A stretch of DNA of 32,232 bases from a virus, in the IMG/VR virus record IMGVR_UViG_3300046838_000098, positions 1-32,232 of that record; one strand, 5' to 3'. The position numbers and the translations under genes were made by a program. Shown piece by piece: positions 3,410 to 16,974 of this stretch (within the stretch, counting starts at the first letter, position 1; each line of letters opens with the position of its first letter). The notes below the pieces were generated by a model. That model was not told where the DNA came from and made no database searches. It saw only the letters and a list, made by a program, of their open reading frames with translations.

Positions 3410-3653
3410 TGACTAGCCCACCTTCGTTTTCAAGCGCCTCGATCTCAGCTTCCGAAGTCCCATCCGCTTCCGCTTCCGGCTCGGGGGTTTCCGTATAGTT
3501 CTTGTGATACTCAAGAATCCACCCTTCAATCAACTCAATTCGGGCTTCGTGACTTACGATGTAATCCCTCAGCGTCGTGAGCATCTTGCCGAGATCGTTC
3601 AATTCTCCCTGGGACACGAATGTCCCCGGTACACTACCGTTCTGCTTCGCCAC
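3378..3653 (-). CDS. Small acidic protein nested between the two polymerase halves
   Basis: This 91-residue reading frame fills the gap in the split polymerase gene. It starts at GTG (3653) with GGAAGG about 8 nt upstream, overlaps the end of the N-terminal half by 20 nt and the start of the C-terminal half by 32 nt, each in a +1 frame step. The product begins MAKQNGSVPG, has a helical middle (LNDLGKMLTTLRDYIVSHEARI) and an acidic tail (PEPEAEADG and DDPEEG). I recognise no family; it is not a homing endonuclease (no LAGLIDADG, HNH or GIY-YIG motif) and has no intein blocks. It may be a polymerase accessory subunit, or an inserted domain if frameshifting joins the three frames. Confidence 0.6.
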   Translation of the reverse strand: MAKQNGSVPGTFVSQGELNDLGKMLTTLRDYIVSHEARIELIEGWILEYHKNYTETPEPEAEADGTSEAEIEALENEGGLVIESTDDPEEG

Positions 3654-4590
3654 TTGACATCCTTCCTGTTCGCGTACCATGCTGGCGATATGAGGGATGC
3701 AGAATGCCACCCCTCTGCTCATCCAGAATGGCTTTTAAGTACGTCCCGTGAATTTTCTTTAGGGTTCTCAGTTCGAGAATTTGCTGCGCGAGGGGGTCGT
3801 CAAGTCCAGCGAGAGTTGTTTTGTCGGTGGACTCAAGGGCGACCCCAATAGCGGCGAAAGCCTCTGTAAGCTGCTTCGGACTATTGGGATTGAATGATTC
3901 AGACCCAACCCGATCCCTAATATCCATTTCGAGAGCGAGTGCTTTAGATGCGTATTCCCGTGCAGCTTCTTCCACGTATTCGACTTTGACACCCATACCT
4001 CGTGTTTCCATTCTGAGGAGAGTAAAAGTAAGTCGCTGCTCAAGTCGGAGGAGTCGAAGTAGATTCTCACTACCCTCAACTTGGGGTCGCAGGATATCGT
4101 GCAGCCGAATGGTGAACTCGGCATCCTTTCGGGCATAGGGTTCTATTACCTCCCTCGGGAGCTTGTCATACCCATCTTTCTTCGTCAGCTTTAACCGCCG
4201 ACGTTCCTTGCGGATTACTTCTTCTTCGTTTGTTTCCTCGCCAAGTAATTCCCGAGCCAGATATTTAAGACCTTTTCGCCTATGCTCATCGAGAAGGTGA
4301 GCGAGACACTCTGTGTCATAGACGGCCTCCGGCCGTAACTCATCTGGATCAAGTATTCCCGCCAATGCCAACTTCTGCAAGTCAAATTTGGCGTTGTGGA
4401 AGATGAGTTCGTCGGCCCCTGCGAGCCGCTGTCGAATCTCGGCCGAATCCTCAGGTAGCGTGTAGAACTCCGTATGAATTCCATCTGCATCGCTTTCTGC
4501 GGTAGTGACAATTACGGCAGTATCAAAGAATGCTACTCCCGTTGTCTCTGTGTCTACCGCCAGTCTAGAAACTCCCGCTTCCAAAGTCAT
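3634..4590 (-). CDS. DNA polymerase I (family A), N-terminal half: 3'-5' exonuclease and thumb
   Basis: This 318-residue product contains a DnaQ-like proofreading exonuclease: ExoI DTETTG (Asp13, Glu15), ExoII HNAKFD (Asp70) and ExoIII YARKDAEFT (Tyr152, Asp156). It continues through the thumb helices to TLAGLDDPLAQQILELRTLKKIHGTYL and the HPSYRQHGTRTGRMSS block that leads to the palm. There it ends after GEAER with a TAG at 3636-3634, so palm and fingers are missing and encoded at 2660-3409. I use ATG at 4590 (AGGA about 5 nt upstream); an upstream in-frame ATG would overlap the Rad52-like gene much more. There is no 5'-3' exonuclease domain, as usual for phage enzymes. Confidence 0.85.
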   Translation of the reverse strand: MTLEAGVSRLAVDTETTGVAFFDTAVIVTTAESDADGIHTEFYTLPEDSAEIRQRLAGADELIFHNAKFDLQKLALAGILDPDELRPEAVYDTECLAHLLDEHRRKGLKYLARELLGEETNEEEVIRKERRRLKLTKKDGYDKLPREVIEPYARKDAEFTIRLHDILRPQVEGSENLLRLLRLEQRLTFTLLRMETRGMGVKVEYVEEAAREYASKALALEMDIRDRVGSESFNPNSPKQLTEAFAAIGVALESTDKTTLAGLDDPLAQQILELRTLKKIHGTYLKAILDEQRGGILHPSYRQHGTRTGRMSSGEAER

Positions 4591-5053
4591 CGCTTCCTGC
4601 TTTCGGGGCATATTTGCGGTCAGTTTCAGCAGCAATTTTCCGCTGCACCGCATCTGGCCCAGGCGCCTTACGCTGCTTGGCAATTACCTGCCGCTCGGCC
4701 TCGTCCCATAGATACAACCCGATGCCGAATTGGTGCCCGGCTTTCTTCAATGCCTCGGCCAGCGCCGTCTTAAGCGCCTTATCGGGATCATTAGCAGTAT
4801 CCGCGCCGACACCCGAAGCAACCTTGCCGAGTGCTTCAATCCTGCCGGTAACAACGGCGAGGTATTTCCCGTCGGAAGCCTGCGTGAGATCACTCTTGGT
4901 GAGCCGGAAGGACCAATCGGCTCCGAGGACATCATTCAGCCTCCTAATGGTGGCGTCGATGGAAATATAGTCAAGTTTCATTCCCCCCTGAGTACGCTGT
5001 TTCACGTCCTCGATGGGAAAATTTTCGCTGAGTTTATCCAATAGCTCGGACAT
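4565..5053 (-). CDS. Rad52/Rad22-like single-strand DNA annealing protein
   Basis: A 162-residue recombination protein of the Rad52 type. The core reads MKLDYISIDATIRRLNDVLG, then a strand with YLAVVTGRIEALG, and a helix block GADTANDPDKALKTALAEALKK followed by AGHQFGIGLYLW, all typical of Rad52-family annealing proteins, which pair complementary single strands during phage recombination-dependent replication. The C-terminus is flexible and ends DDFGSGSF, which resembles a partner-binding tip. The start ATG has AAAGGAG 6 nt upstream. It overlaps the nuclease gene upstream by 20 nt and the polymerase gene downstream by 26 nt, which fits a two-component resection/annealing system with that nuclease. 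Confidence 0.8.
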   Translation of the reverse strand: MSELLDKLSENFPIEDVKQRTQGGMKLDYISIDATIRRLNDVLGADWSFRLTKSDLTQASDGKYLAVVTGRIEALGKVASGVGADTANDPDKALKTALAEALKKAGHQFGIGLYLWDEAERQVIAKQRKAPGPDAVQRKIAAETDRKYAPKAGSDDFGSGSF

Positions 5054-5945
5054 TCAACTCCTTTTCAGTAGGCGTAACTGTCGGCGCAACTTCGGCGTGC
5101 CCCTTACGAGGAAAGTACACACCTTCGAGATCGTAGTGACCAATCTTCGTGTTGCCCTGATTCCGACAGTCGCAGAGTGGGGCTTCCCAATCACAGAAAG
5201 CCGCCGACCAATGCGGTACGCACACAACATTGAATACGGACTTCGTGCCATCCCAGATCAACTTCTGAACCTTGTCCTGCTCAGGTGCCAGGAGGTCCTC
5301 TAATTTATCTCCCCTGGAAAGACCCTCAAATACAGCTTGGACGGCCTTAGAGCGGCTGTGAGCGCGTTCTAGGACCACTTCGGGGGGTAGAGGAGATACC
5401 TCTGCGAGTAGTGGCTCGGGAGATTGGGATGTAATCCGGGTGTCAAAGAAGGGGATGTAGACAACTCCCACCGCATTTAGCATGGGAAGTCCCCTTTCGA
5501 CAAGTGCGTGGAAGTACATTGATAGCTGCCAGATGTGTTCCTCCTTAGCGCCATCGCGCCTCACGAAGAACATACTCTCGCCTTTCACCGTCTTGAGATC
5601 CCCCAGGACGTATGCTTCATAGCCGGGGTGGTAGAAGATGTAGTCTGCCGTACCCGACCAACCCTCAGGCATCCATTCGTCCAACTTGACTTCCGTTTCC
5701 ACTTGCACACCTTGGGACGCAAGTATCCCTTCCGCGTACTTATGCCAGAGGGTTCCAGTCATGTTCCTGAATCCCGATCCGATGCGACGGGGAACGGTAG
5801 GCGCTCCGATGGCTCTGAGTTGAACGTGCCGGAGTGAACCGACAAGATCCGTACTCGCATGGAGTTTTCCATCCGGGGGACGCTGATCCGCTTCTATCGC
5901 TTCGGTGAGCAGGAGGGGTAGATCAACAGGGAAGAGTTCACCCAT
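5034..5945 (-). CDS. Cas4/RecB-like PD-(D/E)XK nuclease
   Basis: A 303-residue protein with a PD-(D/E)XK nuclease pattern: a helix with GTLWHKYAEGIL, then GTADYIFYHPGYEAYVLGDLKTVKG, where Asp in GTAD and the D-x-K of GDLKT form the catalytic site, then HIWQLSMYFHAL as the following helix (QxxxY-like). Near the C-terminus four Cys (VVCVPHW, AFCDWE, PLCDCR) could hold an iron-sulphur cluster or zinc, as in Cas4/AddB-type nucleases, though no N-terminal partner Cys is obvious. It probably resects DNA ends to make single strands for the Rad52-like protein encoded next. ATG at 5945 has AGGAAAGG about 6 nt upstream. It is the first gene after an AT-rich, palindromic intergenic region. Confidence 0.75.
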   Translation of the reverse strand: MGELFPVDLPLLLTEAIEADQRPPDGKLHASTDLVGSLRHVQLRAIGAPTVPRRIGSGFRNMTGTLWHKYAEGILASQGVQVETEVKLDEWMPEGWSGTADYIFYHPGYEAYVLGDLKTVKGESMFFVRRDGAKEEHIWQLSMYFHALVERGLPMLNAVGVVYIPFFDTRITSQSPEPLLAEVSPLPPEVVLERAHSRSKAVQAVFEGLSRGDKLEDLLAPEQDKVQKLIWDGTKSVFNVVCVPHWSAAFCDWEAPLCDCRNQGNTKIGHYDLEGVYFPRKGHAEVAPTVTPTEKELNVRAIG

Positions 5946-6824: not shown

Positions 6825-6991
6825 GAGATTTTCTCCGCAAGCGTGAGCAGCACGATGGCGATGCCACGGCAGACCTTGTACGTGGGCCAAATACAGCAGC
6901 GCCCAAATGGTCCAGCCACACGCCAATCGTTTGCGAGCGTTACTTGCCACTCCCCAAACCACAGGGCCAGCTTCCTACAGGCCGAGGGCAT
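6821..6991 (-). CDS. Small Cys-containing hypothetical protein
   Basis: A 56-residue frame starting MPSACRKLALWFGEWQ. It has four Cys (residue 5, a CC pair, and one in YKVCRG) and a hydrophobic helix near the end (IAIVLLTLAEKI) that could touch a membrane. It is linked on both sides by stop/start overlaps: 17 nt with the gene upstream and GTGA with the gene downstream. There is no clear SD, so translation would rely on coupling. It is called mainly from this linkage and could be wrong. Confidence 0.4.
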   Translation of the reverse strand: MPSACRKLALWFGEWQVTLANDWRVAGPFGRCCIWPTYKVCRGIAIVLLTLAEKIS

Positions 6992-7121
6992 GAGTTAGGA
7001 TTGCGAACGGCCATACCTTCTCGGACAGGAAATGCTCCAATAGGAACGCGCCGTAGGCGGTTAGGCAGCGGGCGCAGAACCTATGCCCGTGCGTCGAGCA
7101 GCGGCCGAAGTGCTGTGACAT
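6975..7121 (-). CDS. Small CxxC protein at the end of the ATP-grasp gene
   Basis: A 48-residue frame starting MSQHFGRCSTHGHRFCARC; the Cys and His spacing suggests a small zinc site, followed by an amphipathic or hydrophobic segment (FLLEHFLSEKVWPFAIL). It starts 41 nt inside the ATP-grasp gene in another frame and has only a weak SD, so translation would depend on coupling. It overlaps the next small frame by 17 nt. It matches the run of tiny Cys-rich proteins in this arm, but evidence is limited. Confidence 0.4.
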   Translation of the reverse strand: MSQHFGRCSTHGHRFCARCLTAYGAFLLEHFLSEKVWPFAILTHALGL

Positions 7122-7824
7122 ACTGCTCGATTCTCTTAGGCGAGAGAGCCGGTGCCGTATTGACTTCAAGGACGTACTCCTTTCCCTCGTGATCCACTAC
7201 CATATCTACGGCTCCGAAGTCGAGGCCAAGAAGCTCAACGGCTTGGATTGCCGCTCTATGGCGGGACGCATTGAGGCCTCGCGCTGGCGTCTTGAATACA
7301 TATCCGTGGGCGTGATTCTTGATGAAACCTCCTTCGGACAGATGGGGTCTTTCGAGATACTTCCTCTGAACGCTAACCACCATCCCTCGGACGACGTGAA
7401 GGCGATACTCGCGTTCATTGGGAATGAACTCAACGTACAGGTCGTGAGGTCCGAGTTGGTCTCCTTGGTCATATACTCGAATCCCACGACCTTGAAAGCC
7501 CTCACTTGTTCGGCCGAAAACAGTAGTTTCCCATTCTTCGGCGATACCTGAACTGACAGACCACCGAGGGATTGGACAATCAGTGTTGGCCAGCGCTTGA
7601 AACGTAGTACACTTTGAACTGGCGCGTCGGATTCCTTCGGCTGAGTTGAGAGTTGCGGGAGTCTCTCGGTCGGGGGATTCCACTCCTCCCCATCGGATTG
7701 CAATTTCCCATGCTCCCTTAGTGCGGGTATGGAAAGCGCAAGAGCCGAAGGGTAGGCCAAGCCCTTTCCCAATGAGTCTGCCCGTGGGACGCCCTGCTGC
7801 ACGGAATGCGAGGACTCTGGGCAC
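7081..7824 (-). CDS. ATP-grasp ligase (RimK-like fold)
   Basis: A 247-residue protein of the ATP-grasp superfamily, enzymes that join a carboxylate (through an acyl-phosphate) to an amine or thiol. Seen: a basic N-terminal part, a central strand block DLYVEFIPNEREYRLHVVRG with conserved acidic residues, QRKYLERP, and the C-terminal AVELLGLDFGAVDMVVDHEG followed by VLEVNTAPALSP, the typical metal/ATP-binding Glu and Asn of ATP-grasp enzymes. The start is GTG with AAGGGGGTG about 5 nt upstream. It sits directly below the class II amidotransferase and amidoligase genes. Such sets are known from phiEco32-type phages and are predicted to make or attach peptides. The substrate is unknown. Confidence 0.8.
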   Translation of the reverse strand: MPRVLAFRAAGRPTGRLIGKGLGLPFGSCAFHTRTKGAWEIAIRWGGVESPDRETPATLNSAEGIRRASSKCTTFQALANTDCPIPRWSVSSGIAEEWETTVFGRTSEGFQGRGIRVYDQGDQLGPHDLYVEFIPNEREYRLHVVRGMVVSVQRKYLERPHLSEGGFIKNHAHGYVFKTPARGLNASRHRAAIQAVELLGLDFGAVDMVVDHEGKEYVLEVNTAPALSPKRIEQYVTALRPLLDARA

Positions 7825-7825
7825 A

Positions 7826-7984
7826 CTACTTCACCCCCTTCAAAATAAAGGTTTGGACAGCCTGCCGACAAGCGAAACAGAGATCGCCTTTCCAGATGAT
7901 GAGGTTATTAGAGACACGCCTGACGGTAGTTTCGTCTACATCATGCGTATCGTTGCACCTATCGCAGTATGTTACGATTGCCAC
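7826..7984 (-). CDS. 52-residue zinc-ribbon protein
   Basis: This very short gene encodes MAIVTYCDRCNDTHDVDE at the start and GDLCFACRQAVQTF near the end: two CxxC knuckles about 30 residues apart, a complete minimal zinc ribbon. The start is GTG at 7984, overlapping the amidotransferase stop (TAGTG) and preceded by GGAGGTG at 5 nt, a very good SD. It stops just before the ATP-grasp start. Its position between the amidotransferase and the ATP-grasp ligase suggests it works with them, perhaps as a carrier, adaptor or substrate, but no family is recognised. Confidence 0.75.
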   Translation of the reverse strand: MAIVTYCDRCNDTHDVDETTVRRVSNNLIIWKGDLCFACRQAVQTFILKGVK

Positions 7985-10026
7985 TATTTCACCTCCGTGA
8001 TTACTACGCTGCCGTCCCTATACGCTGCTACGTCGGCGATTCCCTGCCTGCCTCGACAATGCGAATGGCAGAAGCGGTAGCCATCCAGCCCTGTGAAGTT
8101 AGCTGGGGCGTTGCACTTCGATGCGCCACACTTGTCCCAATGGGAACCGCAGTAAGCCTTCTGCTTGCCGACGAGAGCGTTCTCGACGACGAGCGAGATT
8201 GGCTTTTTGCAGGCCCGATTTCGTGTTCCCTTGCAGCAACAAGCAGTCTCCGTTACCGTAATGGTAACCTCGATCTCGCCCTTTACTTCTTTCGTAGCGC
8301 AGGGAATACACCCCACGCCTTTGAGATAGAAGCCGCTGCAATCCTCGCACCGTTGGAGAGTGGGATTCAAGGGATGCACGTTGTCCGGTTCTCGCTTGAC
8401 AATTTCGACCCCGCAGGACTCCGTGGGCGCCCATACGCAAGCACCACAATGATCTCCATAGGAGAATTGTTCACTGTGCTCCTCGCAGACATACATGACG
8501 CGCTTCTTCTGCCCTGCGATCTCTTCGGAGTAGGCCGTCCAGGGGTACATCTGCTGATCGGCCAATTCCTGCGCTTCTTCCGCCGTGGTCGCCTGATCGG
8601 ATTCCACTTCGGCGGTGATCTCATTCCAGTAATTCGTGACGATTTCCTCATTGAGCTTCTCGTATGCCTTGAGGAGTGCGAACTTGAGGCCGGTCATCCC
8701 GATCCCGAAGTCCTGACTCTTCGTTCCCGTGCGATACATGAGGAAGTCGATTGACCTCTGGGAGAGGCCCGTCTGATCGGAGAGTTCGGCGAGAGTGTAG
8801 CGATGGAGTTTGGCCTCGGTGTCAGCCCAATTCTCCAAATTCGCCCAATCCTCCGCTTTGACAGAAGGGAGGGTGATTCCTTCGATGGGGTCTTCCTCGC
8901 GCTTATTGCCGGAGTCTTTCTGCCATTCCTGGTGACACACGCGGTAGCAATCCTTGCAGATGGCGCCATATTTCAGGTGTGTCGTCATATCCTCGCCCAA
9001 GATGCCGTGCCCGCACATACAGTTGGGCCACTTGAGGTGGCCCTTCACATCGGCGAAGTCTACCTTGTCGTCATAGGATTCCCTGAGATCCCAGCGGCGG
9101 GCCAATTTGAACCCCTCCGGGGGATTGGCGCGGAAATCTGCGACGGCCTTCTTGTAGTCGTTCATGCTGTTGAATATCCCGTTCGTATCCCACGGGCGCC
9201 TGAATGACGCAGCGGGAGCGGGAGTACGGCCTCCTCGAATCCAGGCATATCCATTCTGTCTCTCGACAGGTGGCCGCTGAATGATGGGGCGTGGCTTGAC
9301 CTTGAACTCGTGGACTTCGAGTGCCTTGTAGTCATCGGCGATGAGGAATTTCCCCTCACCTACGAACCGAATTTTGTCAGGCTTGGGCGGAGTTCCCACG
9401 AGATCGCCCCATGTGTCCTTGATGACTGAGGCTTCCGAGGCCCACACGATGCAGTTGTCATTCTCGAAAACATACAACGGGGACGAGGGACCCTTTACCA
9501 GCACGAGGCGGGAGGGATGCCCAATGGGGTCCATCGCAGCGAATGCGAACGATCCCCCCAACTTCTCGATTGCCTCACGAATAGTCTCCGGGGAACCCAG
9601 GCCGTGCTTGTCGAGTAGCGCCGGGATAATCTCCGAATCTACCTGAAAGCGTCTCTCGATTACCTCGTCCTTGAACAAGGCGTCATCATTGTTGATCGAG
9701 CCGTTGTGAATAGCGAAGCAGTTGTTGTAGCTGACGGGGTGGTTATTCCCCATCGTTGCTTCGTCGCCTTTCGTTTTGTATCTCGTGTGCAGGAGTACGG
9801 CCTGAACCCCAGCAGGAAATGGCTCCCTTTCCTTGATGAAATCCGTGGCGCACTTTGCTGCCTTGTCGAGTTTGACGGAGCCAGTCCATCCTACGGCCAT
9901 GTAGCCCGTGGCGTGCTTACCCCGATGCTCGATTTCCAGCAGGAGGCGGTCGCAAAATAGCCCGATATTCTCCTGCGTTACCTTGACCCGTTTGTTCTTG
10001 AGGTATATGCCTGCGATGCCACACAT
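7984..10026 (-). CDS. Class II glutamine amidotransferase fused to zinc-ribbon domains
   Basis: A 680-residue protein. The N-terminus is a class II (Ntn-type) glutaminase: after Met removal it starts with the nucleophile Cys2 (MCGIAGIY), then HRGKHATGY, HTRYKTKGDEATMGNNHPV, HNGSINND and a GGSFAFAAMD strand, which together bind and hydrolyse glutamine to release ammonia. The glutaminase part is about 230 residues. Unlike GlmS or asparagine synthetase there is no recognised synthase domain afterwards; instead the rest has many Cys pairs (CMCGHG, CKDCYRVCHQ, CGAC, CEDCSG, CIPC, and a final CNAP...CHSHCRG block). It lies between an amidoligase and an ATP-grasp gene, which could use the ammonia. 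ATG is at a TAATG overlap. Confidence 0.85.
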   Translation of the reverse strand: MCGIAGIYLKNKRVKVTQENIGLFCDRLLLEIEHRGKHATGYMAVGWTGSVKLDKAAKCATDFIKEREPFPAGVQAVLLHTRYKTKGDEATMGNNHPVSYNNCFAIHNGSINNDDALFKDEVIERRFQVDSEIIPALLDKHGLGSPETIREAIEKLGGSFAFAAMDPIGHPSRLVLVKGPSSPLYVFENDNCIVWASEASVIKDTWGDLVGTPPKPDKIRFVGEGKFLIADDYKALEVHEFKVKPRPIIQRPPVERQNGYAWIRGGRTPAPAASFRRPWDTNGIFNSMNDYKKAVADFRANPPEGFKLARRWDLRESYDDKVDFADVKGHLKWPNCMCGHGILGEDMTTHLKYGAICKDCYRVCHQEWQKDSGNKREEDPIEGITLPSVKAEDWANLENWADTEAKLHRYTLAELSDQTGLSQRSIDFLMYRTGTKSQDFGIGMTGLKFALLKAYEKLNEEIVTNYWNEITAEVESDQATTAEEAQELADQQMYPWTAYSEEIAGQKKRVMYVCEEHSEQFSYGDHCGACVWAPTESCGVEIVKREPDNVHPLNPTLQRCEDCSGFYLKGVGCIPCATKEVKGEIEVTITVTETACCCKGTRNRACKKPISLVVENALVGKQKAYCGSHWDKCGASKCNAPANFTGLDGYRFCHSHCRGRQGIADVAAYRDGSVVITEVK

Positions 10027-12008
10027 TAGCGGCGTCCTGCTGCATTCCGATACGCTTGATCGGCCAACCGCTCCGCTGCGTTAAGATACCGCCGCTCAGG
10101 GGCCTGTCGCACGTAAAGGGGATCATTCAGGACGTTTCCAAACACCTTTCTCTCGGGCTTCTTGACAGCCAATTTCGTTGCTCTGATACAGGTGTTTCTC
10201 GGTGCTACCACCGTGCGATTCCTGGGCGACGGGAGTTCGCGCAATTCGTCGAGGAAGCCATCGGGAAACTCAATGTCAGTCTCGCCAAAGGCGTAAAGAA
10301 GGGAATCCTTCTCATTGGCGGAGAACACGAGCTTCTCGAAGATCCACCTGACGCGCTCCAACGCGACCTTCCGGTGTCCCAGGGTGGTATTCTTCCACTT
10401 CTCCTTCGTCCACCCGAATGTGGGGTACTCATCCTCTTCCACATTCGTCATCTCCTTGGGAGTATCCGCCCATGCGTGAAGTGACTGCATGAACGCGAGC
10501 CATCCGTGGAGAATGCGGGGATTCCCGGTGGAATTCCAGACGCGCCACTCGATTGTACATTTCGGGAGTACGCAGGTGCAATTACGGAGGTTGTCAGCCC
10601 CAGCGCCGCACGCGCAGTATTCCACCGCGTTTTGATACGGCTTGAAGTTGAGTCCGGTCATGCGATCCTGTCCCATGCACGCTCGGAATGCATTACTCTT
10701 GACGCCCCACGGACCCTTTGCGGTCGGGTGGGAATAACCCCTCCCGTTATTGGCCCGATCATGCCCAGGCACCAGCGTCCGGTGGCCGTAGGAGCATCCA
10801 GCGCCCGCGAGGCGGAAGATGACATCTTCGAGGTAGTTGTACCCCGTCACCAGCCGCCAGATGTTGTCCGTCGAGAAATTGTGGGCGTCAATGTGGATAT
10901 GACCCCCGCAGTTGGCGTTATATTCCACTTTCCCCACCTTCTGCAAGGAACGCAGCTTGGCGAGAATTTCCTTGGCGGAGTTCGCGTGCTCGGTCTTATC
11001 GAATTGCAGGAGATACTGGATGAGTTCCCCGCCCGTTACCGAGCCGTCATGCTTGAGGAACGCGGGCCACGATGAGGTATCCGGGCACTTGGTCGAGTAA
11101 CTCTCCACGTATCCCTCGCGGATGTAACCCGCATTGTAGAGAGTATTCGCAAGCGCGTGGGCATCCCCATCCACCTCGGTTTCGATGCTGATGACACGCA
11201 CCGGACGATTCACGAGAGCAGTAAGACGGAGAGAGCCGCCCTTCGGCAATTCTCCCTCATCCCATTTCTCGTGAGGAATACGCTCGGCATCGATGCGGAC
11301 ACCCTGACAGGCACCGCAGAGTCGAACGCCGTCATCTTGCGGGAATACGTAGTCGGAAAATGCCGCACACTCTGTGCAGCGATGCTCCGCTTCGCACTCC
11401 TTGCAGACGAACTTCCCATCAGCCGCAACGAGCATTCCCGCCTCAGCGTGATATCGCCTGCAATACTTGCACCGCTTTCGGGGACAGCAAGTGAGGCACT
11501 TGTCCTTCTCATCCACGACTTGCGCGTGAATGCTGACGTATTCGGAGCATCCCTCACCCGCACAGGGTTTGCAGCAATTCGTGCAATATCGCTGTTTGGT
11601 GTCCCGTCCGCCGATGTAGTGGGAATCCAATCCTGTAGTCTCGCACCAGGAACACCTGTTGAGATAGGCGATCCCATTGCTACCAACGAAGTTGTATATT
11701 CCGAGGGAAACACGCTCCATTCTTCCGAACCTCGGCTGCCACTTGCCATCACCGAGCCACTTCTCCGTTTCTTCCCACGAATCAGTGGTCACTGTATAGC
11801 GGCAGGCGATTCTCCAACCCTCCTGGTGATACGGAGTTGCGAGTTCGGGCGTGAGGCCGTAATGTTTTTCTTTCGCCCAGGTGTATAGGGCATCGAAGGA
11901 GGTCTCATTGAATCCCCTTCCATCGGGGGCGAGATAACCTGCATCCTCGAATACCCATCCCTCCGGGGGCTGGACCACTCTACCGATAACCCTTTTCTGA
12001 ATGGGCAT
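10026..12008 (-). CDS. Amidoligase (glutamine-synthetase fold) with N-terminal zinc-ribbon array
   Basis: A 660-residue protein. Residues about 118-235 hold a dense series of zinc knuckles (CSWC, CTNCCKPC, CLTCCPRKRC-KYC, CKEC, CTEC, CGAC). From about 270 it matches the phage amidoligase family related to glutamine synthetase and gamma-glutamylcysteine ligase: VISIETEVDG (Glu276, Glu278) for metal binding, NCGGHIHIDAH (368-374) and a late TIEWRVWNSTGNPRILHGW block. Such enzymes activate a carboxylate with ATP and couple it to an amine. The zinc array probably recruits a partner or nucleic acid. It is TAATG-linked to genes on both sides and forms part of the amide-bond module. Substrate unknown. 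Confidence 0.8.
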   Translation of the reverse strand: MPIQKRVIGRVVQPPEGWVFEDAGYLAPDGRGFNETSFDALYTWAKEKHYGLTPELATPYHQEGWRIACRYTVTTDSWEETEKWLGDGKWQPRFGRMERVSLGIYNFVGSNGIAYLNRCSWCETTGLDSHYIGGRDTKQRYCTNCCKPCAGEGCSEYVSIHAQVVDEKDKCLTCCPRKRCKYCRRYHAEAGMLVAADGKFVCKECEAEHRCTECAAFSDYVFPQDDGVRLCGACQGVRIDAERIPHEKWDEGELPKGGSLRLTALVNRPVRVISIETEVDGDAHALANTLYNAGYIREGYVESYSTKCPDTSSWPAFLKHDGSVTGGELIQYLLQFDKTEHANSAKEILAKLRSLQKVGKVEYNANCGGHIHIDAHNFSTDNIWRLVTGYNYLEDVIFRLAGAGCSYGHRTLVPGHDRANNGRGYSHPTAKGPWGVKSNAFRACMGQDRMTGLNFKPYQNAVEYCACGAGADNLRNCTCVLPKCTIEWRVWNSTGNPRILHGWLAFMQSLHAWADTPKEMTNVEEDEYPTFGWTKEKWKNTTLGHRKVALERVRWIFEKLVFSANEKDSLLYAFGETDIEFPDGFLDELRELPSPRNRTVVAPRNTCIRATKLAVKKPERKVFGNVLNDPLYVRQAPERRYLNAAERLADQAYRNAAGRR

Positions 12009-12424
12009 TAGTAACCGTCCCCCGGTGCGCCCTCAAGATCGAGCGGCTCGGGGTTAGTGAGATAGGGGTCGGGAATTTCCACCCCATGCTCCAACGAGAG
12101 CGTCTGAGCCTCACGAATGAGGCCCTCCCGATACTGCCAGGGATAGGTGCAGAGATTTTGACACGCTCTCGTGATTGCCCGGTTTTCCAGACGGCCCTCA
12201 GCGAGCTTCTCCCGCCAATTCGGGCCAGCGTAATTTCCGACAGCTTCGTCGAGGGTGAGGTTGAGTGTCTCCAATGCCTCCAAGACCCTGTTGGAATAGA
12301 GCGCCTTTGTGGGGTGCTCCGTCCGGTGGTGGGACTTGATTTTCTCCAAGGCATCGTCCAAGTGATCTGCGTCGTCGAAGTCAAACGGGCACCCGCGACG
12401 CAAGCACCTGCCAAAGATAGCCAA
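12008..12424 (-). CDS. Small protein with N-terminal C2H2-like finger
   Basis: A 138-residue protein starting MAIFGRCLRRGCPFDFDDADHL. The two Cys and a later HHRTEH could form a C2H2-type zinc finger over residues 7-38. The rest is helical (LEALETLNLTLDEAV, then LCTYPWQYREGLIREAQTL) with a Pro/acidic end. The start is TTG, directly after the stop of the PcfJ-like gene, with AAGGAG 6 nt upstream. Its stop overlaps the amidoligase ATG, so the two are translationally coupled. Function unknown. Confidence 0.65.
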   Translation of the reverse strand: MAIFGRCLRRGCPFDFDDADHLDDALEKIKSHHRTEHPTKALYSNRVLEALETLNLTLDEAVGNYAGPNWREKLAEGRLENRAITRACQNLCTYPWQYREGLIREAQTLSLEHGVEIPDPYLTNPEPLDLEGAPGDGY

Positions 12425-13228
12425 TTACTTCTCCTTTCCGATTCCGTTCAGCCACTCTGCAATACGCTTGCCATGTGAGCCGTCCGCCCCTAGCTGGGAT
12501 TTGTTGCTCGCGGATAACAGAATAAGCCACTTGCTGTCGAACTTGAAGCGCCGACCTACGACCCTGATCGCCCCACGATTTTTGGCGAAATTGTCCTCGA
12601 CAGCCTTTGCCGTCTTGACATACGCTGCCCACACATCCTCATCCACATCCTTCGGGCGTGTATTGACGCATTGGGCGGAGCCGATTTGATACGCGAAGGT
12701 ATCGGCATCGTGGTAGTCACGATCTTGGAGCAGGAAGTCGTATGTGCAGGATGTGTAGCGAGCGGGTTTGTATTTCCCCGGTTCGTATTCCAATCCTGCC
12801 TTCTTGAAGCATTCCGTTACGACGGCGAGTGTGGGGTACGTGACATTCCACGTCTGCGCTGCGAGCGGAATTTCCTCCCCATTATCGCGGGGATGCTCCT
12901 TCTGCATCCATGATGCCTGCTTCGCGTGAAGGGTGCTGTGGGGGACGCCTGAGGGGTCGAAGAGGGCGAAGAAATACCAAATGCGCTCCTCGTGTGTCCA
13001 GACGTAATGGGCGCCCGCACAGTGGCCCATAAGGCTTCCCAGGGTCGCTGTGTCGTCGGGGTTATCGATGTAGCCGATGTACCACCCATCGTCCCATTCC
13101 TTCACGTGCTTGACATCGAGCCACTCGTACTCCTGCTTGGCACGGTCGCTCCCTCGCACGCCCTTGACTTTGGGCGCTTCATTGACGAACTCTCCTTCGA
13201 GGGGATTGAATGCGAATGCCTCAGGCAC
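12425..13228 (-). CDS. PcfJ-like protein 1
   Basis: A 267-residue protein with the core pattern of PcfJ-like proteins: LGSLMGHCAGAHYVW (67-77), then RIWYFFALFDPSGVPHSTL (82-100), where an HC-x-G motif is followed by a strand with F/S-L-x-D and P-H-x-T-L. PcfJ proteins occur on plasmids and phages and their biochemical role is not established. A basic segment near the end (RVVGRRFKFDSKWLIL) may bind nucleic acid. I use GTG at 13228 because AAGGAG lies about 7 nt upstream and it overlaps the gene above by 8 nt; a longer frame upstream lacks support. A second PcfJ-like gene is at 14478-15074. Confidence 0.65.
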   Translation of the reverse strand: MPEAFAFNPLEGEFVNEAPKVKGVRGSDRAKQEYEWLDVKHVKEWDDGWYIGYIDNPDDTATLGSLMGHCAGAHYVWTHEERIWYFFALFDPSGVPHSTLHAKQASWMQKEHPRDNGEEIPLAAQTWNVTYPTLAVVTECFKKAGLEYEPGKYKPARYTSCTYDFLLQDRDYHDADTFAYQIGSAQCVNTRPKDVDEDVWAAYVKTAKAVEDNFAKNRGAIRVVGRRFKFDSKWLILLSASNKSQLGADGSHGKRIAEWLNGIGKEK

Positions 13229-13412
13229 GGTCGAACTCCTTGATCTGACGGACTTCACCCCACGGGAAGAACAGCACCGTAAAACCGAGTGCATTCTCGC
13301 TCATTGCTGAGGGGGTGAGCTTCACGCCTTCCTGGGTATGCCGCACGACGACTTCGGCGGACTCGAACTCCACCATTTCGTCGGCCGTGACGACCCTCAC
13401 GATTCTAGCCAT
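13221..13412 (-). CDS. Small hypothetical protein
   Basis: A 63-residue protein starting MARIVRVVTADEMVEFESAEVVV. The pattern of alternating hydrophobic residues suggests a small beta-rich fold (VRVV, EVVVRH, FTVLFFPWGEVRQIKEF). No family recognised. ATG at 13412 overlaps the end of the Cys-rich frame above and its stop overlaps the GTG of the PcfJ-like gene below by 8 nt, so it is tightly coupled within the module. The short SD (AGG at 4 nt) is weak. Confidence 0.55.
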   Translation of the reverse strand: MARIVRVVTADEMVEFESAEVVVRHTQEGVKLTPSAMSENALGFTVLFFPWGEVRQIKEFDRA

Positions 13413-13617
13413 TAACCTGAGTACCGAACGGCGTCAGGGTGAAGTCGTGGATGCAATTACCCCTACGTCCACACACATTCCCGTCCGCATTCAGCTTTTC
13501 GCACGCTTCCTGACGCGCTGCCCTGTCTTGGGCATTTGGAACTGCCTCGGCCAGAGCCTTGCACGTACATCCTCCGGCACATCCAGCGAGGTCAGCAAAT
13601 CCGTTTTCGTCGCACAC
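13405..13617 (-). CDS. Cys-rich protein partly overprinted on an amidoligase gene
   Basis: A 70-residue frame starting at GTG (13617): MCDENGFADLAGCAGGCTC, then QEACEKLNADGNVCGRRGNCIHD. Its many regularly spaced Cys look like a real metal-binding or disulphide protein. The first two thirds run out of frame over the 3' end of the amidoligase gene (13491-13617), which also reads as good protein there. It ends with an 8-nt overlap with the next gene, as the other genes here do. The SD is weak and a shorter version starting at a later GTG is possible, so confidence is modest. Confidence 0.4.
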   Translation of the reverse strand: MCDENGFADLAGCAGGCTCKALAEAVPNAQDRAARQEACEKLNADGNVCGRRGNCIHDFTLTPFGTQVNG

Positions 13618-14291
13618 GAAAGTACCACCCTTTCTGTAACTGCATGATCGACGAGTCTCTGGCAGAACTTGATCCACGCGACAGCTTTCGTTGCATTGAG
13701 GCAACCCTCGTGCAGCCTGAACTCCACGGTCCCATGCTCGGGAATGCTCTGGAAATTCAGGCCCTTATTTCGGGTGCCCCAATCCTTATTCCATAGATCA
13801 CCTCGCCAGTTGTCGTAACCCCTGATATTGCTGCCAAGTTTCTTGATTTGATTCTCCTGCAACGCCGAACACCGAGGCGACCTGAGGCGGTGGGAAGAAC
13901 ACATACGCGCGATGAGTTCCTGATTGTTGTACCAAGTACGGGCGAGGATTTTTGCTGCCTCCGTATCCTCCCCCAACTCCTTCGCGCCCACATGGACGTG
14001 CATCCCATCCGACTTCGTGATGTAGCAACCGAGGTCGAAGAGGAAATCCATGACTTTCGTGAGCTTATTGAAGCCCGCGTCGCCCTTGAGAATTGGCGTC
14101 CTAACTTCGACGCCCGAGCCGTCGCGACCAACACCGTAGCGCAATTTTGTCGCTTGTCCCGTTTGGACCGGGAATTTTGCGACGCGCATGGCTTCATAGA
14201 CTGCGTAGTACGTTTGATTATTCCAGGGGTCGGTGCTGCTCGTGCGATACCCGCATTCGATTTCGACGCCGAAGGTCCGCTCACTTCTCAC
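13491..14291 (-). CDS. Amidoligase (glutamine-synthetase fold), single domain
   Basis: A 266-residue stand-alone amidoligase. Motifs in order: RTFGVEIECGYRT (Glu10, Glu12; metal/ATP), GVEVRTPIL (60-68), GMHVHVGAKEL (96-105) and GTVEFRLHEGCLNATKAVAWI (about 192-212). These are the signature blocks of Amidoligase_2-type enzymes, which form amide bonds by way of an acyl-phosphate, in the same superfamily as glutamine synthetase and the pupylating ligase PafA. I choose GTG at 14291: GGAGG lies about 8 nt upstream, the protein then starts just before the first motif as in relatives, and overlaps the small gene above by 11 nt. Two amidoligases in one cluster suggest two different substrates or steps. 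Confidence 0.8.
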   Translation of the reverse strand: MRSERTFGVEIECGYRTSSTDPWNNQTYYAVYEAMRVAKFPVQTGQATKLRYGVGRDGSGVEVRTPILKGDAGFNKLTKVMDFLFDLGCYITKSDGMHVHVGAKELGEDTEAAKILARTWYNNQELIARMCSSHRLRSPRCSALQENQIKKLGSNIRGYDNWRGDLWNKDWGTRNKGLNFQSIPEHGTVEFRLHEGCLNATKAVAWIKFCQRLVDHAVTERVVLSCATKTDLLTSLDVPEDVRARLWPRQFQMPKTGQRVRKRAKS

Positions 14292-14415
14292 TGGCGAGCC
14301 TCCGTAATTCGGATGCGATATACGTCCCCACGAGTTTGATGACTGCCGTTCCATGGGGAACGTGCTTGTCCGATTTGGTCGAATTGTTATCGACCGAGTG
14401 GAACAAAGTAGCCAT
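14281..14415 (-). CDS. 44-residue hypothetical protein
   Basis: A short protein starting MATLFHSVDNNSTKSDKHVP. The second half, GTAVIKLVGTYIASELRRLAS, would form one amphipathic helix. ATG at 14415 has AAAGGG about 5 nt upstream. It overlaps the amidoligase GTG by 11 nt, so it is coupled to it. No Cys and no known domain. It could be a small partner or peptide substrate of the amidoligase, but this is only a positional inference. Confidence 0.55.
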   Translation of the reverse strand: MATLFHSVDNNSTKSDKHVPHGTAVIKLVGTYIASELRRLASEK

Positions 14416-14453
14416 GTAACCCTTTCTGTCGTATTCCAGGGCACACGCTACAA

Positions 14454-14467
14454 CCGGGAAAACCCGG
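14454..14467. other. Perfect short hairpin between PcfJ-like gene and the 44-residue gene
   Basis: CCGGG-AAAA-CCCGG, a 5-bp GC stem with a 4-nt loop, lies in the 62-nt gap. No T run follows in the leftward direction, so it is more likely a processing or stability element than a terminator. Confidence 0.4.
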
Positions 14468-14477
14468 CCTAGTGTGG

Positions 14478-15074
14478 TTAGAGCGACGTGCCTTCCAACC
14501 ATGCTTGGTAGCGCATCTTGTCGTTCCAATGCGCCCACTCGAAGCCATTACGCTCCGCCAGGAGATAGCGGAAGTGGTAGTTGTAATCCGCATCTCCCAC
14601 ACGCATGATGTATTTGACGAATTTGTCCACGGGCACCTCGATCTCGCCCCCTTTGAGGGCGTACCACTCCCTTACGATGGCGTGGAAGGGTGCCATAGCC
14701 AGTTCGTCATTTCGTCCACGTACTTGTAGAATCCTCGCTCGCTGACCGATTGGCTCCGGCCAGAATGGTTGCAGGCTCCCAACGTCCCAGCAGCGACCAT
14801 AGGGGGAATATTCCCCCTCCCTGACACACAGGATTGTCGCGTGCGGTATGCCTAGAGCGTCCCGTAACGAATACACTACGTGAACGTCTGAGAATTTCGC
14901 GTAGTTTTTCGTCCCGAGACAATGAGCCAGGAAGAATGTCTCAAGCCACCAATCCCACTGTGTGTCACAGCGCACAATGGAGTAGGCGTCTGTACGCCAC
15001 ACCTCCCGAGGATTCTCCCACGGAATCTCGATGTTGCTGATATCCCGTAGGCCATTCCGATAGGAACGTATCAT
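14478..15074 (-). CDS. PcfJ-like protein 2
   Basis: A 198-residue protein with a clearer PcfJ pattern than its relative at 12425-13228: FFLAHCLGTKNYAK (47-60), VVYSLRDALGIPHATILCV (66-84) and ARILQVRGRNDELA, which match the HC-x-G, SLRD, P-H-A-T and Q-V-x-G-x-N features of the family. The start ATG (15074) has AAGGGG 5 nt upstream. PcfJ-like proteins have no firmly established activity. This one is placed between the secreted protein gene and the amidoligase, so it is probably part of the same module. The two copies differ in length and sequence, which points to distinct roles rather than a recent duplication. Confidence 0.7.
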   Translation of the reverse strand: MIRSYRNGLRDISNIEIPWENPREVWRTDAYSIVRCDTQWDWWLETFFLAHCLGTKNYAKFSDVHVVYSLRDALGIPHATILCVREGEYSPYGRCWDVGSLQPFWPEPIGQRARILQVRGRNDELAMAPFHAIVREWYALKGGEIEVPVDKFVKYIMRVGDADYNYHFRYLLAERNGFEWAHWNDKMRYQAWLEGTSL

Positions 15075-15087
15075 CGCGCCCCTTACC

Positions 15088-15585
15088 TCAACTGACCTTA
15101 TACAGCACCGGCCCCAGGCAGCGGGAACCATGCGGCCCGGTTTTCACGTCGATATTCGGAGTAATTCCTGGGACGCTGTACACGGAGTGGCCCCGATAGG
15201 TGGCGGAGTCAATCGCCGTGATAGTCGTACAGGAATACCAGAGCGTGTGTCCGAGGGCCAGGACATTGGTTCTGGTTTTGATGGAGCAGACGATACTTCC
15301 GGCGTCAATCCACGTCCCGAATCCACTTGTCTTTTCGAGACAGGAACCTACCGAAATTTGCGATGGCGCGAGATTGCAGGCGATGGACGTTCTGAACCCG
15401 ATGTGATTCGGTTGCAGCGTGTTATCGAGTCCCCAAAACGTCGAGGCATCCGCTGAACAAATGAGACCTGCGGCTTGGGCGGAGGGAGGCGTAGCAAAAA
15501 CATTTCCCACCACGACCGCGATTGCGAATACCACCACGACCGGCATCGTGAGCCACAAAATGATGCGGCGATGACGCTTACTCAT
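15088..15585 (-). CDS. Secreted Cys-rich protein with signal peptide
   Basis: A 165-residue protein with a textbook export signal: basic start MSKRHRR, hydrophobic core about residues 9-30, and a likely signal peptidase site after AQA (35-37). The mature part has six Cys (43, 70, 82, 100, 119, 156), which would pair as disulphides outside the cytoplasm, and is beta-like (GSIVCSIKTRTNVLALGHTLW). ATG at 15585 has AAGGAG 7 nt upstream. No known family. In phages such proteins can act in surface modification or superinfection exclusion; here it is followed by the PcfJ/amidoligase genes, so it might be a target or surface partner of that module. Confidence 0.7.
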   Translation of the reverse strand: MSKRHRRIILWLTMPVVVVFAIAVVVGNVFATPPSAQAAGLICSADASTFWGLDNTLQPNHIGFRTSIACNLAPSQISVGSCLEKTSGFGTWIDAGSIVCSIKTRTNVLALGHTLWYSCTTITAIDSATYRGHSVYSVPGITPNIDVKTGPHGSRCLGPVLYKVS

Positions 15586-16077: not shown

Positions 16078-16974
16078 CTAAGACTTTACTTGGTACAGGC
16101 AGTAATTCCACCGCGACATTCCCACATCGCGCCTGTGAATTTGCTTCACGAGTTCCCAGTTTTTCGGACACTGGGAGCCGTACTGATTCGGTGGGAGCGT
16201 TTCCGTGACATAGCACCGCTCCGTGTAACTCCACGTCCGCCTTGTGCGCGGGCCGTCATTTCGCAAATGCGTGGATGAGAGGATGTAGGAACCCTCATGG
16301 AGACACCGCCCCACAATGTCGAGGTCTTTTCGCCCCTGATTCCCATTCCCGCCGTCGTGGGCATTACTCATGTAGAGGAGATCGAATGGCCCGTGGGCCT
16401 CCAACTTCTCGAAATCCCCGTGAATAAAGCGCACTATGCCGAGTTTGCGAACGGCAGCCTTCTCGTATTTCCCGAGGCGCTCCCAATGCTGAGTGACAGC
16501 AGTTCCTAAGCGGTTATCGTCGTAGGGATCTCTGCGAATGAGACGATCCCCGATCCGGTCTGAATACGCCAAGTCGTCCCGAGCCGCGTAAATATCGGGA
16601 GGCAAGTCCTTTGATACCTCCTTCACGGCGGCTCCCGCTGTCGTGGGGTCTTTGAGACGCCGGAGCGTGCCCGCGTATCCCCACTTCTGCAACATGAGGT
16701 ATTTCAAGATCGCGTATTGCAGCGATCCCCGATTGTGGTCGATGAGGACTAACTCCTCGCGCACCGTGGGTAGGAGGGAAAAAAATCCCACTTCCCCGCC
16801 CGAGCAAATTGCAGCCGCTCGATTGATGCGCTTGCCCTTGATGAGTTCACGCCAGATACCAATGTCCTCATTGGGACAGAGGTACGAGACGCCGAGCGTG
16901 TTGGGAATTTCGGACACATAGTTCAGCTTGGGTTGCTTTGCAACGGGAGGTTGCTCCTGTGTTGCGACGGTCAT
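16078..16974 (-). CDS. Rossmann-fold methyltransferase-like protein
   Basis: A 298-residue protein with features of class I SAM-dependent methyltransferases or DUF3419-like relatives: NRAAAICSGGEVGFFSLLP as the glycine-containing motif I, ELVLIDHNRGSLQYAILKYLML where the Asp ends strand 2, a later GIVRFIHGDFEKL and FDLLYMSNAHDGG as the strand-4 motif. The exact substrate is unclear and the glycine motif is not canonical, so it may be catalytically altered. I use ATG at 16974, overlapping the TGA of the zinc-ribbon gene (ATGA) with GAGGAG 8 nt upstream; an upstream extension looks non-coding. It is the last gene before the structured 490-bp gap. Confidence 0.55.
   Translation of the reverse strand: MTVATQEQPPVAKQPKLNYVSEIPNTLGVSYLCPNEDIGIWRELIKGKRINRAAAICSGGEVGFFSLLPTVREELVLIDHNRGSLQYAILKYLMLQKWGYAGTLRRLKDPTTAGAAVKEVSKDLPPDIYAARDDLAYSDRIGDRLIRRDPYDDNRLGTAVTQHWERLGKYEKAAVRKLGIVRFIHGDFEKLEAHGPFDLLYMSNAHDGGNGNQGRKDLDIVGRCLHEGSYILSSTHLRNDGPRTRRTWSYTERCYVTETLPPNQYGSQCPKNWELVKQIHRRDVGMSRWNYCLYQVKS

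Follow-up and report, generated by a model that had tools for sequence, protein, structure and literature searches.

Which amide bonds are made, and on what acceptor, by the enzymes encoded at about 6975-15131 in the virus record IMGVR_UViG_3300046838_000098? The record is a single one of 32,232 bases, and we refer to this whole analysed stretch as the window. A first-pass annotation had listed two amidoligases, a class II glutaminase, an ATP-grasp ligase, a pair of PcfJ-like proteins and zinc ribbons in this region, an inventory that we could confirm with small corrections. The genes form a compact minus-strand operon placed with replication and recombination genes and apart from structural genes: from ~15.1 kb down, the minus strand carries the module and then the replication genes, and the genes for terminase, portal and capsid come later, on the plus strand. 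In reading order, the module and the two genes that follow it in our analysis are:

14478-15131, minus: PcfB, the second PcfJ-like protein, with an HC-x-G motif (phmmer match to a protein of the related contig L098)
14281-14415, minus: basic ORF of 44 aa, from sequence; its stop overlaps the AL2 start
13491-14291, minus: AL2, a plain amidoligase of 266 aa, start corrected (PF12224, E 7e-20)
13221-13412, minus: small protein of 63 aa coupled to PcfA; its stop overlaps the PcfA GTG start
12425-13228, minus: PcfA, PcfJ-like, start corrected, with an HC-x-G motif (phmmer match to the L098 protein)
12008-12424, minus: helical protein of 138 aa with a Cys/His finger-like N-terminus (stop/start overlap with AL1, ribosome-binding site)
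10026-12008, minus: AL1, 660 aa, an N-terminal zinc-ribbon array followed by an amidoligase of glutamine-synthetase fold (PF12224)
7984-10026, minus: class II glutaminase with a helical part and a C-terminal zinc-ribbon array, 680 aa (GATase_6)
7826-7984, minus: protein of 52 aa with two CxxC pairs, zinc-ribbon-like, from sequence; its start overlaps the glutaminase stop
7081-7824, minus: RimK-like ATP-grasp carboxylate-amine ligase, 247 aa (phrog_2599, PF08443)
6975-7121, minus: 'sm', a Cys-rich protein of 48 aa overlapping the ATP-grasp 3' end (conserved in L018 and L019)
5034-5945, minus: Cas4/RecB-like nuclease (matches of E 1e-79 to 2e-68 in L098, L101, L099/L100, L028 and L018)
4565-5053, minus: Rad52-like annealing protein (PF04098, 7e-15; relatives in L098 and L028)

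Most neighbouring genes of the module overlap, by stop and start codons or by a few bases, and the overlaps, which had been pointed out before, are real and lie behind plausible ribosome-binding sites; on these grounds we read the module as a single coupled operon. In the initial ORF list, two starts lay too far upstream; they were moved to near 14291 for AL2 and near 13228 for PcfA. Several of the tiny ORFs that had been proposed are indeed present, but the one before AL2 is more likely 14281-14415, the 48-aa ORF at 6975-7121 had been overlooked, and a further candidate, p99 (13405-13704), has a heavy overlap with AL2 and is doubtful. The Cas4-like nuclease lies directly downstream of the module in the window and in five distinct relatives. 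Elsewhere on the minus strand, the gene for a family A DNA polymerase is broken at 3410-3633, between the motifs GRMSS and NLQTIPR, and the L098 gene has a break at the matching point (19836). An orphan of 165 aa, hydrophobic at its N-terminus (15088-15585), overlaps the start of PcfB, and a protein without a Pfam match at 16078-16974, with a SGGEVGFFSLLP...LIDHN stretch, has the look of a SAM-dependent transferase. An Rfam scan of the window returned no family above threshold, and the eight proteins tested against the anti-phage defence systems of PADLOC-DB had no match.

Relatives of the module were found by alignment-based scans; when the glutaminase or PcfA alone was run against viral contigs, nothing was found, and contigs with a relative of the terminase were too short for the module. 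In the resulting lineage set of 12 related viral contigs, the glutaminase was present in all 12, AL1 in 11 (the twelfth is cut), the ATP-grasp ligase in seven, AL2 clearly in four and a PcfJ-like protein in two (one over the cut-off, one divergent), some absences being only apparent as L028 begins and L025 ends inside the glutaminase. L099 and L100 are probably near-identical, their AL1, glutaminase and ATP-grasp matches being equal in length and score. The glutaminase followed AL1 in 11 of the 11 contigs with both, and the order AL1, glutaminase, ATP-grasp was fixed and is the same in PaP3; G008-G011 have AL1 and the glutaminase without an ATP-grasp match, and any of them may be a fragment. 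Catalytic residues of the module were invariant in distant relatives of roughly 20-40% identity. As judged from these contigs, the fixed core is the AL1-glutaminase pair followed by the ATP-grasp ligase, and AL2 and the PcfJ-like genes are optional. A working amide-bond module, as suggested earlier, is supported by intact invariant residues and by core genes kept together in fixed order; the accompanying expectation of joint occurrence with undegraded active sites holds for the core, but AL2 and PcfJ come and go. A tblastn search of phage records with PcfA, PcfB and AL1 returned nothing usable, which suggests that these particular forms seldom occur in sequenced isolates. Near the module, L018 (8355-8984), L099 (2212-2712) and L101 (15033-15623) each encode a protein with an HExxH motif whose N-terminus is hydrophobic, and the two of these that were scanned had no Pfam match.

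AL1 scored just above the cut-off of the Pfam family Amidoligase_2, PF12224 (23.1 bits, cut-off 22). Its residues E276, E278, D321, E328, H370, H372, E394, E487 and R489 were invariant among 13 sequences with identity down to 16%, and they are the set that would be expected of a carboxylate-amine ligase; its fold model matched YbdK, glutamine synthetase and PafA weakly (E 2e-4, TM about 0.4 by target). The long zinc-ribbon array ascribed to AL1 was confirmed, with 19 cysteines ahead of the catalytic core. Of ten aligned module sequences, seven, among them the window, have an array of 16-23 cysteines, and the other three have at most one cysteine there, so the array is not essential to the chemistry. 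A CxCG...CxC knuckle is inserted in the core beside the catalytic ExR strand; it occurs in all ten module sequences, minus one cysteine in one of them, is missing from PaP3, UFV-P2 and T5S1, and can serve as a marker of the lineage. When bacterial genomes were scanned with AL1, only distant amidoligases were found, mostly in Firmicutes and none with a nearby glutaminase, and a host-genome version is not supported.

The glutaminase matched GATase_6 of Pfam with an E-value of 7e-15, its amidotransferase domain spanning residues 1-205, and Cys2, R82, N108-G109 and D130 were invariant across nine phages. The reported fusion of this enzyme to C-terminal zinc ribbons is present in the 680-aa protein: C336, C338, C357 and C360 are kept in L018, L019, L098 and L101, and at least one CxxC ribbon pair was seen in ten of ten aligned module sequences. 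Cys-containing glutaminase tails are also found in LUZ24-like phages, ZRK32, Phriendly and T5S1, and the window, L098 and L101 alone have the very long tail. Since ribbons are widespread, LUZ24-like glutaminase tails included, and the longest ones restricted, ribbons as such are, by these alignments, typical of the cassette and the long arrays an elaboration specific to the lineage. CxxC ribbons are suited to the cytoplasm. They may, as had been proposed, serve for docking, and the acceptor may be a protein. In L100 (~11560-11603) the glutaminase lacks an ATG and has an apparent ATT start, with the catalytic Cys still as second residue. A match in Enterococcus phage Efs (L011), by appearance an ordinary glmS gene, was set aside.

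The ATP-grasp protein matched PHROG 2599, 'S6 glutaminyl transferase', with E 7e-43 and Pfam RimK PF08443 just above the cut-off (22.4 bits, cut-off 21), and its motifs were invariant among six sequences. A profile of its relatives hit the RimK structures 7qyr/5zct with E 4e-13 and was nearest to RimK-type glutamate ligases and cyanophycin synthase, then to graspetide ligases, and tetrahydromethanopterin glutamate ligase is also among the relatives. Membership in the R2K ATP-grasp clade was rejected, with PF18299 (21.7 bits) and PF14243 (21.3 bits) under their cut-offs of 26.2 and 26.3 and a better fit to the RimK model. This likeness points to addition of an amino acid at a carboxyl end and would fit modification of a peptide or protein.

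AL2, annotated before as a second plain amidoligase, is a clear member of PF12224. It matched phrog_2443 (1.6e-26) and, weakly, the YbdK-family model TIGR02050 (2.8e-5); its catalytic residues are invariant and of the same kind as those kept in AL1. In a survey of AL2-type amidoligases, a glutaminase was encoded within 3 kb on the same strand in 21 of the 39 distinct groups with enough downstream sequence; glutaminase matches occurred in 169 of 50,697 phage records. L019 has two AL2 copies, and a GNAT-like gene (9646-10008) overlaps the first of them at its start.

PcfA and PcfB had no match to PF14284 at the curated Pfam cut-off, and their PcfJ-like label is probably right, through intermediates. 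A 163-aa relative in L098 (15376-15867), encoded shortly after the ATP-grasp gene, was over that cut-off (26.3 bits against 25) and matched PcfA with E 2.6e-12 and PcfB with E 2.4e-7 in phmmer; a profile of the three proteins matched pCF10 PcfJ and relatives in a one-to-one comparison (E 1.3e-4), and the fold model of the L098 protein had phage PcfJ-like proteins as top matches. Like the PcfJ family, to which L098 and the fold model link them, the window copies have the HC-x-G and C-terminal Q/V-x-G motifs; they differ in lacking the long N-terminal part and in having an insertion. In L101, a divergent, weakly supported copy lies directly before AL1 (E 0.0013). A search for the HC-x-G motif among amidoligase loci found no further PcfJ, and a second PcfJ scan returned only the contig already found. 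The best PDB matches of the PcfJ-like model were GNAT acetyltransferases (E 2.6e-3, TM about 0.3, pLDDT 65); this low-confidence model gives a lead, but no more, that the domain could be a divergent acyl- or aminoacyl-transferase of the GNAT type. No paper naming amidoligase and PcfJ together was found in the literature searched; PcfJ, which comes from conjugative plasmids and phages, is now placed beside defined chemistry.

Among the small ORFs, 'sm' was found in the window, L018 (10926-11132) and L019 (12071-12283), with no comparable score in other loci; its homologues stand directly upstream of AL1. It has a C..C pattern followed by EH...EK...LG and a hydrophobic C-terminal half, and it is a candidate partner or substrate. 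The 52-aa and 138-aa proteins had no relatives among the related contigs searched. Short basic ORFs that end in Lys/Arg lie directly before AL2 in L018 (9970-10197), L025 (6380-6514) and L028 (1463-1597), and a similar 41-aa ORF lies one gene further upstream of AL2 in L019.

Taken together, we favour, at a probability of roughly 0.4, an early-region phage cassette that makes amide bonds from glutamine-derived ammonia and ATP, the acceptor being most likely the carboxylate of a peptide or protein in the cytoplasm. The class II glutaminase would hydrolyse glutamine by means of its N-terminal Cys and hand the ammonia to AL1, which would activate a carboxylate as acyl phosphate in a site of the glutamine-synthetase type and convert it to the amide. 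By analogy with other ammonia-transferring enzymes, the constant adjacency of the two genes would fit a two-part glutamine-dependent amide synthetase. The RimK-like ligase would then add at least one amino acid, probably glutamate, to the acceptor of AL1, AL2 would form a further amide, and the glutaminase ribbons and the AL1 array may hold the enzymes together or tether them to a macromolecule of the cytoplasm. The acceptor is most probably the carboxylate of a host protein or of a small phage peptide; cytoplasmic zinc ribbons lead us to favour an intracellular macromolecule or a peptide over a metabolite. We infer the ammonia hand-over, the order of steps, the target and the roles of the zinc ribbons and PcfJ-like proteins from the features above, and our literature search found no biochemistry for any such cassette and no identified substrate. 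A more elaborate version, a tagging system in which a zinc-ribbon scaffold brings the glutamine-dependent amidoligase, the RimK-like ligase and the PcfJ-like partners to a single acceptor, for which the operon's small ORFs might serve, seems to us distinctly improbable.

Other acceptors have to be weighed against a cytoplasmic peptide or protein. The cassette might add or amidate residues on peptidoglycan stem peptides or precursors and so block adsorption or lysis by competing phages, which, in the accessible text of two papers, is a reading offered without experiment for the phiEco32/RIO-1/LUZ24 cassette and includes superinfection exclusion (PMC5498523; PMC10580990). Amidation of the cell wall by MurT-GatD enzymes is known (PMC3267633), and the secreted HExxH proteins that L018, L099/L100 and L101 encode close to the module leave room for an envelope target. 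Against this, no cell-wall-binding, transporter or Mur-ligase domain was found in the module proteins scanned, the module lacks two enzymes of the published cassette, the gamma-glutamyl cyclotransferase and the PF14395 ligase, and long zinc-ribbon arrays would be odd for a small lipid-linked substrate; we regard such a target as unlikely, though a serious candidate. Rather unlikely in our view is a role in small-molecule metabolism, with gamma-glutamyl amides or other amino-acid amides being made or recycled for the nitrogen economy of infection. Several ligases and zinc arrays appear excessive for nitrogen scavenging and there is no cyclotransferase; the weak match of AL2 to the YbdK family and the presence of tetrahydromethanopterin glutamate ligase among the ATP-grasp relatives speak for it. 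A nitrogen role has been proposed for auxiliary genes of phage ZRK32, but the growth effect is not linked to the cassette genes by mutation in the part of that paper available (PMC10945688).

Two further readings are less probable again. If the basic ORF before AL2 or the 48-aa Cys-rich ORF were the substrate, the ligases would yield a modified peptide in a RiPP-like maturation. The short basic ORFs directly before AL2 in the window, L018, L025 and L028, the 48-aa ORF shared with L018 and L019, and the graspetide ligases among the ATP-grasp relatives agree with this, but small basic ORFs are frequent in phages, the 48-aa ORF was not found in other relatives and a core-peptide motif is not evident, so that we hold it to be very unlikely. 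Finally, a carboxyl-bearing modified base in the phage DNA could be amidated or extended, as the module lies beside DNA metabolism genes, zinc ribbons could bind nucleic acid, and Arthrobacter phage Ottawa (L005, 3949-10594) has an amidoligase-glutaminase pair near three ParB-like proteins and an oxidoreductase. This we consider highly improbable: the scanned proteins of the window, a subset of the ORFs, included no recognisable base hydroxylase, hydroxymethylase or glycosyltransferase, and to our knowledge none of the module families is known for base modification.

The phiEco32/LUZ24-type amidoligase cassette was reportedly described by Iyer et al. in 2009, and from that year on there are reports of amidoligase cassettes from many phages. 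The lineage studied here sharpens the question of their substrate: it splits a stable core (AL1 and glutaminase, then ATP-grasp) from the optional AL2, PcfJ-like proteins and long zinc arrays, and it offers small ORFs as candidate peptide substrates. It would be more of note if the zinc scaffold, the PcfJ partners or the small ORFs proved functional. The Pup-ligase PafA was among the structures matched by the AL1 model (4bjr, E 2e-3), after YbdK and glutamine synthetase. A Pup-like tag ending in GGE/GGQ was looked for and rejected, the small ORFs of the operon ending LGL, SEK, FDRA and KGVK. An enzyme of the MurT-GatD type was likewise discarded: that enzyme pairs a Mur-ligase-like subunit with GatD, a class I glutaminase, and the module has a class II glutaminase and a ligase of glutamine-synthetase fold instead.

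Arthrobacter phages Wheelbite and Ottawa resemble the window in that an AL2-type amidoligase adjoins a class II glutaminase; they differ in that AL1 and ATP-grasp were absent from the stretches read, the glutaminase is without zinc ribbons and a cyclotransferase is present. The human-gut phage contig MT839723 (L006, 4161-6163), a fragment of 6.6 kb in which no ATP-grasp was seen, has an amidoligase with an N-terminal zinc-ribbon array adjoining a class II glutaminase, but this amidoligase has 330 aa. The closest comparison is with phiEco32, LUZ24/PaP3/tf/UFV-P2 and RIO-1-like podoviruses, which share with the window the order of PF12224 amidoligase, class II glutaminase and ATP-grasp (PMC5498523; PMC3890496), together with a second carboxylate-amine ligase, a Cys-containing glutaminase tail and a position in the early/replication region. 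The earlier statement that this combination is known from phiEco32-type clusters is correct, the same core being found in LUZ24-like phages. The window has PF12224 proteins with an intact catalytic set (AL1, AL2), a glutaminase with intact Cys2, R, NG and D, and a RimK-like ATP-grasp after the glutaminase. Unlike that cassette, it lacks the PF14395 COOH-NH2 ligase (neither a Pfam scan nor a profile built on PaP3 and UFV-P2 gave a match), the place of which may be taken by AL2, of phrog_2443 type, and it lacks a gamma-glutamyl cyclotransferase; the latter is also missing from the T5S1 and Phriendly stretches and is thus not universal in the cassette. Description of the module as expanded applies to its long arrays and added PcfJ-like genes, but not to the two ligases, tailed glutaminase and ATP-grasp: a pair of carboxylate-amine ligases, a zinc-ribbon-like C-terminal glutaminase tail and an ATP-grasp were already known from LUZ24-like and RIO-1-like phages (PMC5498523). 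PaP3, UFV-P2 and T5S1 are without the AL1 zinc array and core knuckle of the window. As far as the sequences can tell, the window is a variant rather than a strict member of the phiEco32/LUZ24/RIO-1 cassette, whose core is already known; new here are the zinc knuckle in the AL1 core, the lack of both a PF14395 ligase and a cyclotransferase, the long zinc arrays and the PcfJ-like partners.
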